A stretch of 64,000 nt of DNA. It comes from Caldifarciminota bacterium (GTDB lineage: Bacteria > Hydrothermota > Tepidihabitantia > Tepidihabitantales > Tepidihabitantaceae). The translations under genes were made by a program, and so were the position numbers. Positions 4,385-13,824 of this stretch are shown piece after piece. The stretch lies in contig JAOABP010000004.1 in assembly GCA_026418295.1 (NCBI GenBank), forward strand, positions 1 through 64,000, given 5' to 3'. The notes beneath the pieces were generated by a model. The model saw nothing but the letters and a program-made list of their open reading frames with translations, was not told the DNA's origin and searched no databases. Within the stretch, counting starts at the first letter, position 1, and every line of letters begins with the position of its first letter.

Positions 4385-5338
4385 CTAATTTTCTGACCAT
4401 TTACCGCACCGGTCACCATAACGGTCTATCACTTCAGCACCACGGAGCGTCTCCACGACCTCGCACCGGTTCGGACAGCCGTCGCACTCAAACACCCGGG
4501 TTGCAAACTCGGTCCGAGCGACCTCAAATCCGGCAAAACGGCTCGCCTGACCGCGGGTTGCTTCAGCTGCAAGGATTGCAGCACCAATTGCCCCCATCAC
4601 GAGGAAATACTCGGGCACAGTAATTTCCTGCCCCAGTGCCCGCTCAAACGCTGCCCTGACCCCGACATTAGCTGCCACACCTCCCTGAAAGAGAATTCTG
4701 GGTCTGATCTCCTTCCCTTTGGCAACCGTATTAAGATAATTGCGCACAATCGCATCACACAGACCGGCAATAATGTCATCGGTCGGCACACCCAGCTGTG
4801 CCTTGTGAATCATGTCCGACTCGGCGAACACAGTGCACCGACCCGCGATACTCACCCGGTTTTTCGCCCGTAAAGCCCGGGCGCCGAACTCTTCAATCGG
4901 GATCTGGAGCCGGGCTGCCTGATGGTCAAGAAAACTGCCGGTGCCGGCAGCACAGACCGTATTCATGGCAAAATCAACCGGAATTCCATCCCGGAGAATG
5001 ATAATCTTGGAATCCTGTCCGCCAATCTCCAGCACCGTCTGGACATCCGGGTAATAAGTCCCTGCTGCCACCGCATGAGCGATGATCTCATTCTTGACTA
5101 TATCCGCCTGAATCATCACCCCGGCAAGCCTCCGTGCCGAACCGGTAGTCCCCGCACCCAGAATCCGCAACCGGGAATCAACTTCACTTCCCAGCTCCTT
5201 CAGAAGTTGGCGGATTGAACCGATCGGATTCCCCTGTGTGCGCAAGTACCGATAGGCAATCACCCGGTAGTCCCGGTCGATTACCACTCCTTTAGTGGAG
5301 ATGGAGCCGACATCAATTCCCAGAAACCCTTCGTGCAT
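4385..5338 (-). CDS. BadF/BadG/BcrA/BcrD-type ATPase (2-hydroxyacyl-CoA dehydratase activase-like)
   Basis: LGIDVGSISTKGVVID phosphate loop, NTVCAAGTGSFLDHQA, AGRCTVFAESDMIHKAQ, FQGGVAANVGV; extra C-terminal CDGCPNRCEV...RCG cysteine motif. Start placed at MHEGF (5338). Confidence 0.9.
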   Translation of the reverse strand: MHEGFLGIDVGSISTKGVVIDRDYRVIAYRYLRTQGNPIGSIRQLLKELGSEVDSRLRILGAGTTGSARRLAGVMIQADIVKNEIIAHAVAAGTYYPDVQTVLEIGGQDSKIIILRDGIPVDFAMNTVCAAGTGSFLDHQAARLQIPIEEFGARALRAKNRVSIAGRCTVFAESDMIHKAQLGVPTDDIIAGLCDAIVRNYLNTVAKGKEIRPRILFQGGVAANVGVRAAFERALGQEITVPEYFLVMGAIGAAILAAEATRGQASRFAGFEVARTEFATRVFECDGCPNRCEVVETLRGAEVIDRYGDRCGKWSEN

Positions 5339-6377
5339 ACTTCCGCCTCCGCAGCAGTTCCACAAACGCCTCCAGTCTTGTTACCAGGCCGGTGGTTGAG
5401 GTATGCTCATCAAACGAAAGATAAAGCAGCGGCACCCCGCTCTGCTCCGATATCCGCTGCAGTGCCTCAAGGGCGATATTCTCCGGCATGCAGGTAAACG
5501 GGAATACCTGCACAATTCCGTCCACGCCCTGCATCACAAACTGACGTGCCTCCCCCACGGTCCGGATCGCCTCACCGCCCGGACACTCGGCAAGATACGG
5601 CCTTGCCAGTCTTCTTGACCGGCGATACCCGGCATCGATATGCAACAGATACCGCAGATGGTTATAAAGACAGCGCTCAAAAACAACCTCGGCTCCGAGT
5701 CGTGCCAGTTCCTTCTCAATCTCCTGATTTGCCCGCTGATCCACGGTGTAAAAAATCTCGCCTACCAGCCCGATCCGGATATCTGCCCTTTTACCATTAA
5801 TGCCGAAAAGGCGCACCATTTCCCTTCTTGCCCGCTTCATCTCAGAAATTGTCCGCGCCCGGTCAATCAGACTCATAACCGGACCCTTTACCTGCTCCGC
5901 CCCGGCAAAATCAACCGCCCGCTTGCGATTGAGCAGGCGCCGGAAATCCCGGGTTAGAGCACTCTTTACCAGCAGCCGGCAGACCGCCCGCATCACGCGC
6001 AACGGTGAAACACCAAACAGCTCCGGTATCAGTTTGAATATGAACCCGGATGCCGAATACTGACTTACCGGCACCAGCCGGAAATCCTGTTTTATCTGCC
6101 GCAACGCCTGTTCCTGAAGAAAATGATAATAGCCGAACCGGCACTTGCGAGCACCGGCAGCCATCAGAAGGGTATCAGCACCCCGCTCCAGCGCCTCGGC
6201 GAAGTTGCCCAGAGTAATTTTGAACGGCATACACACCAGCTCCGGCGCCAGCTTCACACCGATTTCTACCGTCCTTTTGGAAGTCGGCGGTGGCAGCACC
6301 ACCTCGGCTCCGAGTTCCTCAATAAACCCCTTCAGCGCCAGGGTATCAAAGCCGAAGTGAGGAATCCCGACCTTCAT
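5313..6377 (-). CDS. Acyl-CoA dehydratase activase-related protein (DUF2229-like)
   Basis: MKVGIPHFGFDTLALKGFIEELGAEVVLPP, ELVCMPFKITLGNF, FPFTCMPENIALEAL, DEHTSTTGLVTRLEAFVELL. Confidence 0.8.
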   Translation of the reverse strand: MKVGIPHFGFDTLALKGFIEELGAEVVLPPPTSKRTVEIGVKLAPELVCMPFKITLGNFAEALERGADTLLMAAGARKCRFGYYHFLQEQALRQIKQDFRLVPVSQYSASGFIFKLIPELFGVSPLRVMRAVCRLLVKSALTRDFRRLLNRKRAVDFAGAEQVKGPVMSLIDRARTISEMKRARREMVRLFGINGKRADIRIGLVGEIFYTVDQRANQEIEKELARLGAEVVFERCLYNHLRYLLHIDAGYRRSRRLARPYLAECPGGEAIRTVGEARQFVMQGVDGIVQVFPFTCMPENIALEALQRISEQSGVPLLYLSFDEHTSTTGLVTRLEAFVELLRRRKYARRVSGN

Positions 6378-6384
6378 CAGACCT

Positions 6385-7299
6385 TCAGCATCCTGCCGCT
6401 ACCCCGGATCTGCTCAAACACCGCCGGTTCAGCAGCTCAACGAACGCCTCTACCCTGGTCACCAGACCGGCAATGCCGGTATGCTCATCAATGACCAGCA
6501 GGAGAAACGGCACTCCCTGCCTTTGTGCCCGGCTGCGCATGAACTCTGCAACCAGGGAATCAGGACCGCAGCCCATGGATACGACCATGCAGAACCCGTC
6601 AACCCGGCCCAGCAGGTATTCGAACGCATTATACAGCTCCCGCTCATAAACCCAGCGGATATTGTGAGCAAAACCGGACCGGTTCAGCAACACCCTTCCC
6701 GGCAGTGACTCTTTGGTTATGACTTCATAACCATTCTGCCGGAAGGTCCTGATAATTGCCCCGGCGATAAACTCATCGTTCAGATTGTAAAAATGGCCGA
6801 TCAGTGCTACGGTCCGCCTGCCGGCTGCCGGCAGGTTATCCTCATTTCTCCCCCGCTTTCCTCTTTCCGACCGGACCGCCCGACGCCACCCCTGCCATAC
6901 CCGAACCGGATTGGCACAGACTGCCAGCCCGGCAGTCAGATGTGCCCGGGTGAAGTTTCCCTTGATACTGGGAGCGATCAGACGCACCTTTTCCCCCAGA
7001 AGCATCCGGGCAACATCGACGATGCCGATCATCTTCGGACAGGCATAAAGTCCGTCATAAAGCCAGTCCAGACGGGGAAAGAAAATTGCATCAACACGCT
7101 CCTTCAGATAAAGGAGATGTCCGGCAACTATCTTGATTGGCAGACAAACCTCACCTGAAACACACTTCAGCCCCTGTTCCAGAATCACTTCATCGGTTTT
7201 GGGGCTGAGCACCACCTCCACCCCCAGGTTACGCAGATAATTTTCCCACAGCGAGCCGTAACGGTAATAAAGCAGTGCCCGAGGTATGCCGACTTTCAT
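6385..7299 (-). CDS. Acyl-CoA dehydratase activase-related protein (DUF2229-like), paralogue of the adjacent gene
   Basis: MKVGIPRALLYYRYGSLWENYLRNLGVEVVLSPKT, GEVCLPIKIVAGHLLYL, MGCGPDSLVAEF, DEHTGIAGLVTRVEAFVELL. ATG at 7299 preceded by TTGACT-N16-TAAAAT. Confidence 0.8.
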   Translation of the reverse strand: MKVGIPRALLYYRYGSLWENYLRNLGVEVVLSPKTDEVILEQGLKCVSGEVCLPIKIVAGHLLYLKERVDAIFFPRLDWLYDGLYACPKMIGIVDVARMLLGEKVRLIAPSIKGNFTRAHLTAGLAVCANPVRVWQGWRRAVRSERGKRGRNEDNLPAAGRRTVALIGHFYNLNDEFIAGAIIRTFRQNGYEVITKESLPGRVLLNRSGFAHNIRWVYERELYNAFEYLLGRVDGFCMVVSMGCGPDSLVAEFMRSRAQRQGVPFLLLVIDEHTGIAGLVTRVEAFVELLNRRCLSRSGVAAGC

Positions 7300-7305
7300 C
7301 AATTC

Positions 7306-7761: not shown

Positions 7762-8553
7762 GTGAAACAGCTGCAGAAGAGAAAAAAGGGCTTTATAGCC
7801 CGCAATCCATGGCTGTGGACCGGAATCGGAATTGTAGTAATAATAGCCCTGCTGTTCCTTGCCCGGACACTTTCCCAGCCGCCGCCGCAAAAGACAGATA
7901 CCAGCAGGGTTGCGCTGAAAAAGCAGAACCTTGATGCCTATACCCTGATGGCGGGCACGATCCAGTTTGATACTGCCCTGTTTACCCCGCTGGCACCGGA
8001 TTTACGCCGGCAGATGCAGCAACTGCTGAGAATGGTCTCGAATCGGGAACTGGCTGATGTCATTGCCCGGCTGAACCGGATGCGCCGTCATTCCGCCTAT
8101 GAATCCGGGGTAATCCGGTTGTTGACTGGTGTCTGCTATTACGAACTGGGGCAGGCTGAATCTGCGCTCAACGCCTTCCGGTCCGGGGTGAAGCTGCTTG
8201 ATACGCTGTCAACTCCGGATGAATATCACCGGCGGCTTATCGCCCGGCTGGGATTTAACTGCGGCTATCTGTTTCAGTTTTATTCCTATCCGGAAAGTGC
8301 CCGGCACTACTATACCCTGAGCCAGCGTGCGCTCAGTTCACTGGCAGAACCGGACCGTCAGTTTGCTGGCAGCCTTCTGAACAATCTGGGTCTCACCCTG
8401 GAAACCATTGGTGATACTGTCAACGCACAGCGGTCTTATCTTCAGGCACTGAATTACCTGGATACGACCGGCACGACGCCGGAAGCAGCCCGCCTGCAGA
8501 AAAATCTCCGCCGCAATTTCAGAGCATCTCGCGCGGGTCAACATCAATCCTGA
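7762..8553 (+). CDS. Membrane-anchored TPR-repeat protein of unknown function
   Basis: N-terminal TM segment NPWLWTGIGIVVIIALLFLARTL, then TPR-like helices (YYELGQAESALNAFRSGVKLLD; LLNNLGLTLETIGDTVNAQRSYLQALNYL). GTG start. Confidence 0.7.
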   Translation: MKQLQKRKKGFIARNPWLWTGIGIVVIIALLFLARTLSQPPPQKTDTSRVALKKQNLDAYTLMAGTIQFDTALFTPLAPDLRRQMQQLLRMVSNRELADVIARLNRMRRHSAYESGVIRLLTGVCYYELGQAESALNAFRSGVKLLDTLSTPDEYHRRLIARLGFNCGYLFQFYSYPESARHYYTLSQRALSSLAEPDRQFAGSLLNNLGLTLETIGDTVNAQRSYLQALNYLDTTGTTPEAARLQKNLRRNFRASRAGQHQS

Positions 8554-10402
8554 CCCGGATCCGGGGATGTCTCAGTTTTCTCCGGTCAATCACCTTCGCC
8601 GGCATCAGGTTGGCAGGCAGTTTTACAATCAACCGGAACTGCGGATTACCTTGTCGTCGCTGCAGCAACTTCACCGGTCCAAGCAGTTCGATCCCCGGCA
8701 AGACGCTCAGCTCCGAGACCATTTTATTCACCCAGTTCACCACCGTCTTTTCCTCACCTGAAAATTCAACCGCCACCAGCCGTTTATATGGAGGGAAACC
8801 TGCTTCTGCCCGCAGTTTCAACTCCTGATCTAAAAAACTGCTGACTTTCCCCTGCAGGGCAAGCTCCAGCAGCGGATCTTCAGGCCGGGTTGTCTGGATG
8901 ATCAAACGGGAAGGCTTCCGGGACAATAATGACACGAGCAAACTGAAAGCCCGTTCCCGGGAACGGAAGTCCGGAATTGTGAATTCGGTGTCAAAATTGA
9001 GAAAAACAACCAGTCCCGGCACCCGCAACCGGTCCGAGCGTAACACTGTACGGGTGCCGACCAGTACCGGAGCAAATCCGGTCGCTCCGGCATCTGCAGC
9101 TGCAAGCTGGACATCCTGAGCACCGCCGGTGACACTCTGACACTCTATGCCCAGCCGTTTCAATTCTCGAACGACCATATCCACGCCGGGCGCCCGGTAA
9201 TTGAAATTCATTCCCTGACACACAGCACACCGCTCCGGTGCCTCATCTTCCGCACCGCACACCCGGCATCTGACTCTGCCCGCACCAGAGAGAATATAGG
9301 GGCTCTGACATCGGGAACACTTCAGCACCGTGCCGCAATCTGCACACTCAACATAACGGCTTAAACCCCGGCGGTTAATATAACAGAGGGCAATCTGCTG
9401 CTGTTTAAGTGCATTCCGGAGATCGCGGAGCGCACGGGGAGAAACAAGCTCCCGACGGTGCTGACGCATGTCGACCACAAAAACATTTGTCCGGTCAATG
9501 CGGAAATTAACCCGGTCGAGCAAATGATATTTGCCCCGGCGTAAATTCCACCAGGTTTCAACAGACGGCGGCGACGCAAAAACCAGGACCGGACAGGAAG
9601 CAAAACGGGCACGGGCAACTGCCACATCCCGGGCATGATAGCAGGGCACCCGTTCCTCCTTGAAGGACTCGGCATTCTCATCAACCAGTATCACCCCTGA
9701 CAGTCTCCGGACCGGCAACCAGACCGCAGAACGCATACCGACAACCACATGGTTGGTGCGGACAATTGCCTGCCAGGCTGCCTTCTGCTGTTTTTTCCCC
9801 ATCTGATGGTGATATTCAATTACCCGCTCACCCCAGACACGCCGAAGCAGAGGTAGAAATTCCGTCCGGTACGCTTCCGGCATCAGGATAATGACCGAAC
9901 CGTTACTGAACGCGCGCCGGATAAAGTCAAAAAGCAGTTTCTGAAATTCTGACCGCTGAGCAGTGACCCAGACTCCGAAATTGCCGGCATTAAACGCCTG
10001 CTCCAGTTCTGATGGCAGACTGTTAAAACCGTTTTCTGCTGCACCAATCTCAGCAGTGACAGCTTCCGCCTTACCGGAAACGATCTGGGGCAGAACCAGT
10101 TCCAGCACCTCACCCAGATGGCATACATAGTAATCAGCAGCCCAGCGCAGCAGTCGCAGAAGATCCGGTGTGATAAACTGACTTGCGACAACATCGATTA
10201 CGGGCTGGATTTCCTCCGGTGAAATTTCAGTGTCCGCACGAACACGCAGAACCGCACCGGTCACTGTTTTTCTGCGCAGTGGAACCCGCACAATGTCGCC
10301 GGGATGAAGTTCCCCCGGCTCCTCCGGAGCAAAACGATAGGTGAGCTCATCCAGCGGGGTACGGGGAACCACCACATCGGCAAACATCAACCTTTCAGCC
10401 AT
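8519..10402 (-). CDS. priA: PriA-family primosomal protein N' with degenerate helicase motifs
   Basis: N-terminal DNA-binding region (VVVPRTPLDELTYRF...GDIVRVPLRRKTVTGAV), zinc-binding CADCGTVLKCSRCQSPY...CRVCG...CAVCQG, C-terminal FPPYKRLVAVEFSG...RVRIDVDP. Confidence 0.85.
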   Translation of the reverse strand: MAERLMFADVVVPRTPLDELTYRFAPEEPGELHPGDIVRVPLRRKTVTGAVLRVRADTEISPEEIQPVIDVVASQFITPDLLRLLRWAADYYVCHLGEVLELVLPQIVSGKAEAVTAEIGAAENGFNSLPSELEQAFNAGNFGVWVTAQRSEFQKLLFDFIRRAFSNGSVIILMPEAYRTEFLPLLRRVWGERVIEYHHQMGKKQQKAAWQAIVRTNHVVVGMRSAVWLPVRRLSGVILVDENAESFKEERVPCYHARDVAVARARFASCPVLVFASPPSVETWWNLRRGKYHLLDRVNFRIDRTNVFVVDMRQHRRELVSPRALRDLRNALKQQQIALCYINRRGLSRYVECADCGTVLKCSRCQSPYILSGAGRVRCRVCGAEDEAPERCAVCQGMNFNYRAPGVDMVVRELKRLGIECQSVTGGAQDVQLAAADAGATGFAPVLVGTRTVLRSDRLRVPGLVVFLNFDTEFTIPDFRSRERAFSLLVSLLSRKPSRLIIQTTRPEDPLLELALQGKVSSFLDQELKLRAEAGFPPYKRLVAVEFSGEEKTVVNWVNKMVSELSVLPGIELLGPVKLLQRRQGNPQFRLIVKLPANLMPAKVIDRRKLRHPRIRVRIDVDPREML

Positions 10403-10419: not shown

Positions 10420-13400
10420 TCAAAAGCGCAGTTTAAACCGGTACCGGAGTGAATAACGACCGTCCATTGAACGCTCCGCCACCAGTTCATTCCGCCGGTT
10501 AAGATAATACTCAATCCGGAATGCCGGTTGAAAGTCATCTGCAAAACTCTGGGTATATGACACATACAGATTACGAGTCACATACTTGCCCACAGTAACC
10601 CGTGCCGCTTCACTGCCCCCGAGTCCGGTTTCCAGTTCCAGATAATCGAGACTGATATAATCCCGGACCCGTTTTGAAACCTGGGTCTGGAAATAACCCA
10701 ACACCCGCTCAGCAAGCAGTCGGGAAAGCAGTTCCTTCTGCTCCATTGCCGAGAGTTCATCCATGGTCACATTAAGACTCAGATAGGTGATAATCTGCGT
10801 CTCATCCCATACCGGCGGTTCAGCAGAAAAGGCAAACACCGGTTCCTGGAGACTGCCGGTAACCCTAAGCCTCAGCCTTTCCGGTCCGTTGGTGTGCCGG
10901 CCCGACACCGGCAATTCAGCGGTAAGGTCAAGCTGCGGATTGAAGCTGCTGACATTATCAAAAAGGAGTCTGCCTTCAGTAAGCTGCAGTGTATGATCCA
11001 GGTAATAAATTCTCCCCTGACGGCTGACCATCTCGCCTGAATAAAGTACATCCTCTCCGATCTTGCGCACGGTCAGATCCACGCCCAGCTCGATGTCCGC
11101 CTGAGGGTTGCGAAGCCAGAGCCCCCGTTCCCCGCGTACCCGGATGTCATAATTGATATCACTGCCACCATTTCCGCCCGCCCCCGGCTGTCCCCCAAAA
11201 CCGATCGTCGCCAGTGCATCATCAATCCTTGCTTCACCACTGATCAAAGCCAGCTCCCCCTCACGCCAGGAGACGGTGATATCGCCACTGCCAATCGCAT
11301 AGACCGCGGGAATCGGAACCGCCGACACGCCGGTAAAATGAGTCTGATACCGCAGCGACTCAACCTGAAGGGCGGGATTCAGCTGAACAAAACCCTCGGC
11401 AGTCAGCACCCCGCGCGTAGTTACGCCGCTCAGCTTTTCGAGTACGATCCGGTCTTTTTGAAAACTCAGCTCGGCTTGAATCCGCTCCGCCCTGGCGGCA
11501 ACCGATGGAACAATCAAAACCCCGTCATTTACCCGGGCTCTTCCTGATAGATTCAGCATTCCCGGTTCCCAGTCTGCCTGAACCAGCGCATAGATTCTCC
11601 CTTCGGGAATTTCTACATAGGGTCGGGTAACCTTCAGAATCCAGTTTCCCGGATCCGCAAGAACTACAGTCAGATCCGCTTGCCGGATGCTGAGTACAGG
11701 CTGCCATTCATAACGAAGCACCCCTTTAATTTCACTTGTATCAATATGATGTACAAACTTAATATAATCAATATCAACATTGTTTCTGAAAATGGCAAGC
11801 CGGCTTTTTAGAAAGTTGAAATCAAGTTCTGCAGCCGGTAATTTCAGCCCATCCACCTTCAGATCAACGGTGAGCGAATCGCTGCCGGCAACACTGATAT
11901 CTGCGCTACCGCTCACATCCAGCTTCAAGCCCGCAAGTGTCGCCAGGTTCTTGAGATTCAGCTGATGTCCGATCAAATAAAGGTGCGAAATTGAACCGGC
12001 GGTCAGCTCCAGTTCAAATTCAGTCTCCCCCCCGGCAATTGATAACCTTACACCATTAACCGCCAGCGTATCTCTGTGTAGAGCAACCTCGCAGGAATCA
12101 ATCAATGAAACGGTATCCCCTCTGATAACCAGATTCATGTCTCTGATAACTGCAGACAATCCACTGCTCTCCAGGCTGACATCCCCCAGCATTCTCAACT
12201 GGGTTGAATCCTCTTCAAACTGAAGATCGAATTCCGGTCCGGTCCAGACGAACTGCGCCCAGTTCCACTCCCGTCCTGCCAGCTTCACCCCTTCGCCACC
12301 GACTGCTAATCGACCGGAAACCTGTTCACCGAGCCTTAAGCCAACGCCTCCCCCACGACCGCTCAGATCTGCCTGAATCAGGCCGGTGGTCACTTCAAAC
12401 CCGTTGGCACCAAAACCGGCAACCCGCACCAGACCGGAAAACCCCCAGCTGTCACCAGCAAGTGTCATTCTCAATCTGCCGTCTGCCCTGCCGCTCAGAC
12501 CAACTTTCAGAAATTTGCCCGCTATCTTGAGATCAAACCCGGACATCTCACATTGAGCAAGCAGCATCCCCTTTTTGGCTCTGCCGACAAAATTGAACCT
12601 GCCTGCCGGTCCGTCAATGAACAGCTCCCTTAACTCTACCGCCTGATGCTCATAATTGATCACTGCCGCCAGCGTTTCAACCCCGAGTTCGGAAGCACTC
12701 CCATTCAATCTGATTACCAGCGAATCACTACCCTTCCCCGCATCCGGCATCTTCAGCATTTGACCAAGTGAATTCAACCTGCCATAGGCATCAAGCCGGG
12801 CACTTAACCCGAACTCCGGTAAAGAATGCATGAAACGGTTTACGGGCACACTCTCCATCACAATTGCCGCCCGGAATAAAAAGTTGCTCAGGTTAAACCT
12901 GCCGTTGACCACTACTGCCCCCAGTTCCGGACTGCCTCCGCTGATTTTCAATTCCAGCAGTGAATCAGCCAGGGTACAGGCACCGGTAAGCCGGGGCAGC
13001 TTCAGCTCATTTTGTTCCAGATCCGCAACCCAGCCATTTAGCTCCACCCGCCGCTCACCACCGGTTTTGTGAACACTTCCCCTTAACTGAGCCTGTCCGG
13101 GAATTTTCAAGATTTCCTGAAGACTGACCCCCAGTTCTGCCCGGTCTATCACAACTGCTCCGGTGGCCAGATTCACATATCCGTCAGCGGTGAACCGGGA
13201 ATGAGCCGTCAAAATCTCCAGATTCCTGACTGTCAGCGAATCGTTAACCAGCGTAATCAGAGCTCCGGTCCGTGCAACTGAAATTTTTTCCTTTGTCAGC
13301 CGGAAATGAACCGAATCCACCTTCATCACCAGGCGTGTGCCGTTAGCATCCAGCCCCAGAACGAACCCGGCTGAATCGATACGCAGCTGCCTGTCATACC

Positions 13401-13824
13401 ACACCCGGCAATTGTGAATCTGGAGACGATGCACAGCAATATTCGGCAAGTGTATTGGCTTGAATTGTGATGTTCCGCCGCCCGTGTCGCCTGCGGCAAT
13501 CCGGATGTCCGGATTAATTATGTCCACTTCCTTGAGAACAATACGGCGCTGAAGCAGTGAACGCAGATCATACCTTACTTTCACCAGCTCAAAGGAATAA
13601 GTATCGGACCGGATCATTACTTTCAAATTTCTGATTCCGGGCGAAGAAAATATATCTCCCTCAATGCCTTCGTAAACCACGAAGCCATTGATTGATCTGC
13701 TCAACCCGGCTACGGTTCGGCGTATGACCAGTCGTGCCAGCTGCTGACGCAGCATAAAACCTGTAATCAGCACCACCACCACCGCGCCGAGAAAATAAAT
13801 GACTATCCTCCTGAGAATCCTCAT
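10420..13824 (-). CDS. tamB: TamB-like translocation/assembly module protein (DUF490)
   Basis: 1134 aa with N-terminal TM segment and beta-helix-like repeats; C-terminus GRIYYLDHTLQLTEGRLLFDNVSSFNPQLDLTAEL...QIITYLSLN...YISLDYLELETG...VTVGKYVTRNLYVSYTQ is typical of TamB. Confidence 0.88.
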   Translation of the reverse strand: MRILRRIVIYFLGAVVVVLITGFMLRQQLARLVIRRTVAGLSRSINGFVVYEGIEGDIFSSPGIRNLKVMIRSDTYSFELVKVRYDLRSLLQRRIVLKEVDIINPDIRIAAGDTGGGTSQFKPIHLPNIAVHRLQIHNCRVWYDRQLRIDSAGFVLGLDANGTRLVMKVDSVHFRLTKEKISVARTGALITLVNDSLTVRNLEILTAHSRFTADGYVNLATGAVVIDRAELGVSLQEILKIPGQAQLRGSVHKTGGERRVELNGWVADLEQNELKLPRLTGACTLADSLLELKISGGSPELGAVVVNGRFNLSNFLFRAAIVMESVPVNRFMHSLPEFGLSARLDAYGRLNSLGQMLKMPDAGKGSDSLVIRLNGSASELGVETLAAVINYEHQAVELRELFIDGPAGRFNFVGRAKKGMLLAQCEMSGFDLKIAGKFLKVGLSGRADGRLRMTLAGDSWGFSGLVRVAGFGANGFEVTTGLIQADLSGRGGGVGLRLGEQVSGRLAVGGEGVKLAGREWNWAQFVWTGPEFDLQFEEDSTQLRMLGDVSLESSGLSAVIRDMNLVIRGDTVSLIDSCEVALHRDTLAVNGVRLSIAGGETEFELELTAGSISHLYLIGHQLNLKNLATLAGLKLDVSGSADISVAGSDSLTVDLKVDGLKLPAAELDFNFLKSRLAIFRNNVDIDYIKFVHHIDTSEIKGVLRYEWQPVLSIRQADLTVVLADPGNWILKVTRPYVEIPEGRIYALVQADWEPGMLNLSGRARVNDGVLIVPSVAARAERIQAELSFQKDRIVLEKLSGVTTRGVLTAEGFVQLNPALQVESLRYQTHFTGVSAVPIPAVYAIGSGDITVSWREGELALISGEARIDDALATIGFGGQPGAGGNGGSDINYDIRVRGERGLWLRNPQADIELGVDLTVRKIGEDVLYSGEMVSRQGRIYYLDHTLQLTEGRLLFDNVSSFNPQLDLTAELPVSGRHTNGPERLRLRVTGSLQEPVFAFSAEPPVWDETQIITYLSLNVTMDELSAMEQKELLSRLLAERVLGYFQTQVSKRVRDYISLDYLELETGLGGSEAARVTVGKYVTRNLYVSYTQSFADDFQPAFRIEYYLNRRNELVAERSMDGRYSLRYRFKLRF

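Follow-up and report, generated by a model that had tools for sequence, protein, structure and literature searches.

Introduction

PriA pseudohelicases are a known kind of protein. The actinobacterial PriAs covered by the NCBIfam PRK14873 models are annotated in databases as lacking helicase motifs. The PriA of Deinococcus radiodurans binds both fork DNA and DnaB although it does not hydrolyze ATP, and in a survey of 100 PriAs from 18 phyla the Deinococcus-Thermus group was the notable exception to the good conservation of PriA motifs (Lopper et al. 2015, PMC4504706). For Escherichia coli, the same paper states that the K230R exchange alone abolishes the ATPase of PriA and that K230 mutants assemble primosomes (PMC4504706). 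Moreover, E. coli K230A PriA supports DnaB reloading onto forks in vitro, and PriA-PriB restart in vivo does not require the PriA ATPase (PMC10175261).

Here we analyzed a stretch of 64,000 nucleotides (the window; contig JAOABP010000004.1, positions 1 to 64,000) from a Caldifarciminota bacterium of the phylum Hydrothermota. An initial annotation had noted in it a PriA homologue with degraded ATPase and helicase motifs. We compared this protein with known PriAs and with those of the whole phylum.

Results

The homologue was confirmed as the product of a 627-aa open reading frame at 8519-10402 on the minus strand, which scored 272 bits against the priA model TIGR00595 (cut-off 230) and 318 bits against the general PriA model PRK05580. 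Its scores against the PRK14873 models were far lower (at most 135 bits), and it is not close to these models. Profile search of the 1.80-Mb genome (G000, 97% complete) identified this gene as its only priA. The other matches were partial: one was RecG, and the others are probably of the Mfd and UvrB types, so that the intact second copy considered in the initial annotation was not found in this genome. Its immediate upstream neighbor is tamB (10420-13824, minus strand; PF04357), and a neighborhood scan showed the same arrangement both in relatives with a degraded PriA and in relatives with an intact one, which indicates an orthologous locus. The protein is a genuine, full-length and vertically inherited PriA orthologue. 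On its other side, a TPR protein gene (7762-8553, plus strand) converges on priA, the two 3′ ends overlapping by 35 bases, and is kept beside priA across the family. Further along, at 4385-7302 on the minus strand, a BadF-type CoA-dehydratase activase adjoins two DUF2229/HGD-D-like proteins; the set is complex-like and has no obvious link to priA.

Alignment of 111 PriAs of the phylum with those of E. coli and a Verrucomicrobium located each former motif in the window protein (coordinates all on the minus strand). At motif I/Walker A (9938-9964), TAQRSEFQK replaces GVTGSGKTE, with F in place of K230 and a 2-residue deletion immediately before it that shortens the P-loop. The string previously read as Walker A, GVWVTAQRSEFQ, is present (aa 143-154, nt 9941-9976), but the actual counterpart of GVTGSGKTE is shifted by a few residues relative to it. 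At motif II/Walker B (9656-9694), DEEH has become VDEN and FKE is retained; the string VILVDENAESFK quoted for it is likewise present, but spans aa 237-248 (nt 9659-9694), the interval 9674-9685 given for it being too short. Motif III (9557-9580) reads FASPP for GSATP. Motif V (9023-9058) has changed from GTQMLAKGHHFP to GTRTVLRSDRLR, keeping GT and losing KG..FP. In motif VI, QVAGRAGR is replaced by SLLSR followed by three gaps, with one Arg kept; DFRSRER is retained, and the DFRS...SRKPSR stretch quoted for this motif was found at 8906-8971. The glutamine of motif 0/Q is deleted.

The missing signatures were not displaced within the protein. Scanning its full length revealed no GK[ST], P-loop, DExH/D or Q..GR..R. 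None of the hallmarks of an active superfamily 2 helicase is left: Walker A, the DExH box and the arginine-finger motif are all lacking. Judged from the alignment, the motifs for ATP binding, for ATP hydrolysis and for converting hydrolysis into strand separation are gone, although the protein may still bind ATP without hydrolyzing it.

The remaining architecture is largely, not entirely, preserved. The 3′-DNA-binding domain (aa 9-105, 10088-10378, minus strand; PF17764, 77 bits) and the C-terminal domain (aa 538-623, 8534-8791, minus strand; PF18074, 25.9 bits, just below the cut-off of 26.9) are retained, as are all eight zinc cysteines of the Cys-rich region (aa 353-395, 9218-9346, minus strand). 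PriA_3primeBD and PriA_C were the only Pfam domains detected. DEAD, ResIII and Helicase_C gave no match in the window protein, whereas the same scan found them in E. coli PriA and in G102, an intact PriA of the phylum. The winged-helix domain (PF21213), matched in E. coli PriA, was also missing, contrary to the claim that PriA architecture was kept. It is not universal in PriA: the scan did not match it in G102 either, and since G102 belongs to the same order, the domain was probably lost earlier. An AlphaFold model from a two-sequence input reached a pLDDT of only 50, so we drew from it the identity of the fold and not the geometry of the active site; its nine best PDB matches were all PriA structures. 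The window protein could be aligned with E. coli/Klebsiella PriA (4nl4, 6dgd, 8fak) over the 3′-DNA-binding domain, both helicase lobes, the zinc region and the C-terminal domain, but E. coli PriA has all helicase motifs and a winged helix.

Relatives showed the same losses. The priA model found a match in each of the phylum's 147 genomes, though not always at full length; no full-length match was seen in G065, G070, G079, G084 and G085, which are 92-97% complete. Among 111 readable PriAs, 53 lack GK[TS] (hereafter dead) and 58 have it (intact). K230 is kept in 0/53 dead and 58/58 intact PriAs. Other motor residues have also nearly vanished from the dead group (fraction kept: Q203 0.00, G545 0.02, G583 0.06; Q580 below 10%), whereas an open frame with all eight zinc cysteines is found in 53/53. 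G29, P310 and G490 are equally invariant, and P253, P359, R625, P631 and P632 are kept in more than 90%. Such a pattern is the signature expected if catalysis was lost while a scaffold for DNA binding and docking was kept, and supports the earlier proposal to that effect. The retained residues are generic PriA ones, common to intact PriAs (3′-DNA-binding domain, eight cysteines, DFRS.ER, PP and C-terminal domain).

The gene is under purifying selection. Between G000 and its congener G107, priA differs by 114 synonymous and 64 non-synonymous changes, with a dN/dS of 0.16. Of the three thirds compared, the one with the dead helicase core is under the strongest constraint (dN 0.028, dS 0.25, ratio ∼0.11). 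Neither a broken frame nor a dN/dS near 1, as in a decaying pseudogene, was observed. For the same pair, dN/dS was lower in rpoB (0.04) and tamB (0.07), and dead PriA pairs (0.09-0.31) tended to lie above intact pairs (0.05-0.17), which indicates that constraint on this functional protein is somewhat relaxed.

Loss of the motor is a family-wide trait. All PriAs read from the window's family (f1) are dead, as are those of three families of the same order (f2, f3 and f5) and of f6 in the same class; the remainder come from f12, one genus of f22, and f32-f37. Family f22 is mixed, G034 and G035 being dead and G032 and G033 intact. In a tree of rpoB from 93 genomes, the PriA state must have changed at least five times, once around the intact G102, which is nested within the window's order both by rpoB (SH-aLRT 95) and in the PriA tree. 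In the PriA tree, grouping f1, f2, f3 and f5 as one clade without intact G102 and dead f6 was rejected (p 0.014). If a lost P-loop cannot return, there were six or seven losses in the phylum; if the G102 gene is foreign or mis-binned, there were four. A single loss in the window's class still passes the AU test on the PriA tree alone (p 0.18), so our conclusion is limited to at least four separate losses of the PriA ATPase motifs within the phylum. The window protein is thus not simply the second, independent case that the initial annotation had envisaged.

The window genome encodes DnaB (539 bits), DciA (80 bits) and RecG (740 bits), the last being present across the phylum. DnaC/DnaI was not recognizable in G000, the search returning weak AAA matches only. 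The SSB ends in the canonical tip ...LDDIPF, and the SSB-linked residues W83 and Y87 of PriA are kept; counterparts of E. coli R698 and Q702 are not, and the phylum's intact PriAs do not generally keep them either. From W83, Y87 and the SSB tip, SSB binding by the window protein is plausible.

A search for helicases that might compensate for the dead motor revealed no dedicated candidate tracking PriA loss across the phylum. RecQ was not found in G000 and is sporadic in the phylum, again without tracking the loss. No PcrA/UvrD/Rep-type protein of G000 exceeded 270 bits against the PcrA model and no full-length PcrA/Rep was found; the genome has just two UvrD-type proteins, one of them fused to a nuclease. 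The phylum-wide pattern also speaks against PcrA/Rep: several families with dead PriA keep PcrA, and the intact family f16 seems to be without it.

The best PcrA-model match in G000 is a 944-aa helicase of the UvrD family whose tail is a Cas4-like nuclease (L225:267-3101, minus strand; contig C8, about 116766-119600), below the PcrA, AddA and RecB cut-offs. Without RecQ, full-length PcrA/UvrD/Rep or an active PriA, the fork-remodeling toolkit of this genome seems cut to RecG and UvrD-nuclease types, and the family members G107, G108, G110, G111 and G112 showed a similarly reduced one. Some UvrD/PcrA-like frames in G070, G087, G055 and others contain one to three in-frame stops, which may be assembly errors or pseudogenes.

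Discussion

Like D. radiodurans PriA, the window protein is a PriA orthologue in which motifs I and II are ruined and the DNA-binding and zinc parts are kept. By its sequence it is the more degenerate of the two: in Deinococcus-Thermus the Walker A Lys is replaced by Arg, whereas here the P-loop is shortened beyond recognition, and motifs 0/Q, V and VI have likewise been erased. A further difference is that the losses in this phylum are repeated and stand beside intact relatives.

Since published work shows that primosome assembly can do without the PriA ATPase, and that D. radiodurans PriA is active as a binder, the window protein most likely acts likewise. We consider it probable that this sole PriA of the bacterium is a pseudohelicase serving as an ATP-independent scaffold for fork recognition and DnaB loading. 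Its 3′-DNA-binding domain and helicase-like lobes would recognize abandoned forks or D-loops, the zinc region and C-terminal domain would provide a docking surface, and DnaB would be recruited, probably with DciA, without any unwinding of DNA by PriA itself. DciA is proposed as the DnaB-loading partner because no DnaC/DnaI was found; in Caulobacter, DciA and PriA have been suggested to act together at forks (PMC9825169). We infer both DnaB and DciA as partners. Forks that need prior unwinding would be remodeled by RecG or another enzyme, RecG being the likeliest in this phylum, or left to recombination.

Three other readings were weighed against this scaffold. Strong motif erosion, the missing winged helix and motif 0/Q, and a dN/dS above those of rpoB and tamB are what a relic would show if restart had passed to another protein and priA were heading for loss. 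Yet every dead PriA retains its open frame and eight cysteines, constraint within the own-genus pair is strongest in the helicase core itself, and the dead state has persisted through whole families; such decay is largely refuted and we regard it as very unlikely. Alternatively, the protein might have left restart and use its zinc region and 3′-DNA-binding domain for another nucleic-acid task, such as initiating replication or regulating recombination. Motor loss in G000 does accompany the absence of full-length PcrA and RecQ, which suggests that the fork toolkit as a whole has been altered. However, what has been retained is what intact PriAs also carry, and the locus is syntenic, making this change of function unlikely.

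That ATP might still be bound or hydrolyzed through an unusual site is hardly credible. Motif II keeps its second E and motif V its GT, but the protein lacks any form of P-loop and has lost motif VI, the Q-motif, K230 and the first D of motif II, and the single K230R exchange cited above is enough to silence the E. coli enzyme. The ATP-independent scaffold thus remains our preferred interpretation. A further possibility, which we hold tentatively and with more doubt than belief, is that the phylum gave up the motor six or seven separate times because its DnaB-DciA restart uses PriA only as a fork-reading scaffold, the ATPase being a dispensable accessory and not part of the core.

Three things are new here: how far the erosion has gone (a P-loop erased rather than a K to R exchange, with motifs V and VI also lost), the lineage and, most importantly, the recurrence beside intact relatives within one phylum. 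These findings add another phylum, with multiple independent events, to the Deinococcus-Thermus exception. E. coli can restart without the PriA helicase, which raises the question why nearly all bacteria keep it. The occurrence of dead and intact PriAs in one phylum, at times within one family, offers a natural experiment on which genomic changes accompany loss of the motor, and the residues never lost in the 53 dead PriAs point to the surfaces that are important for the scaffold role.
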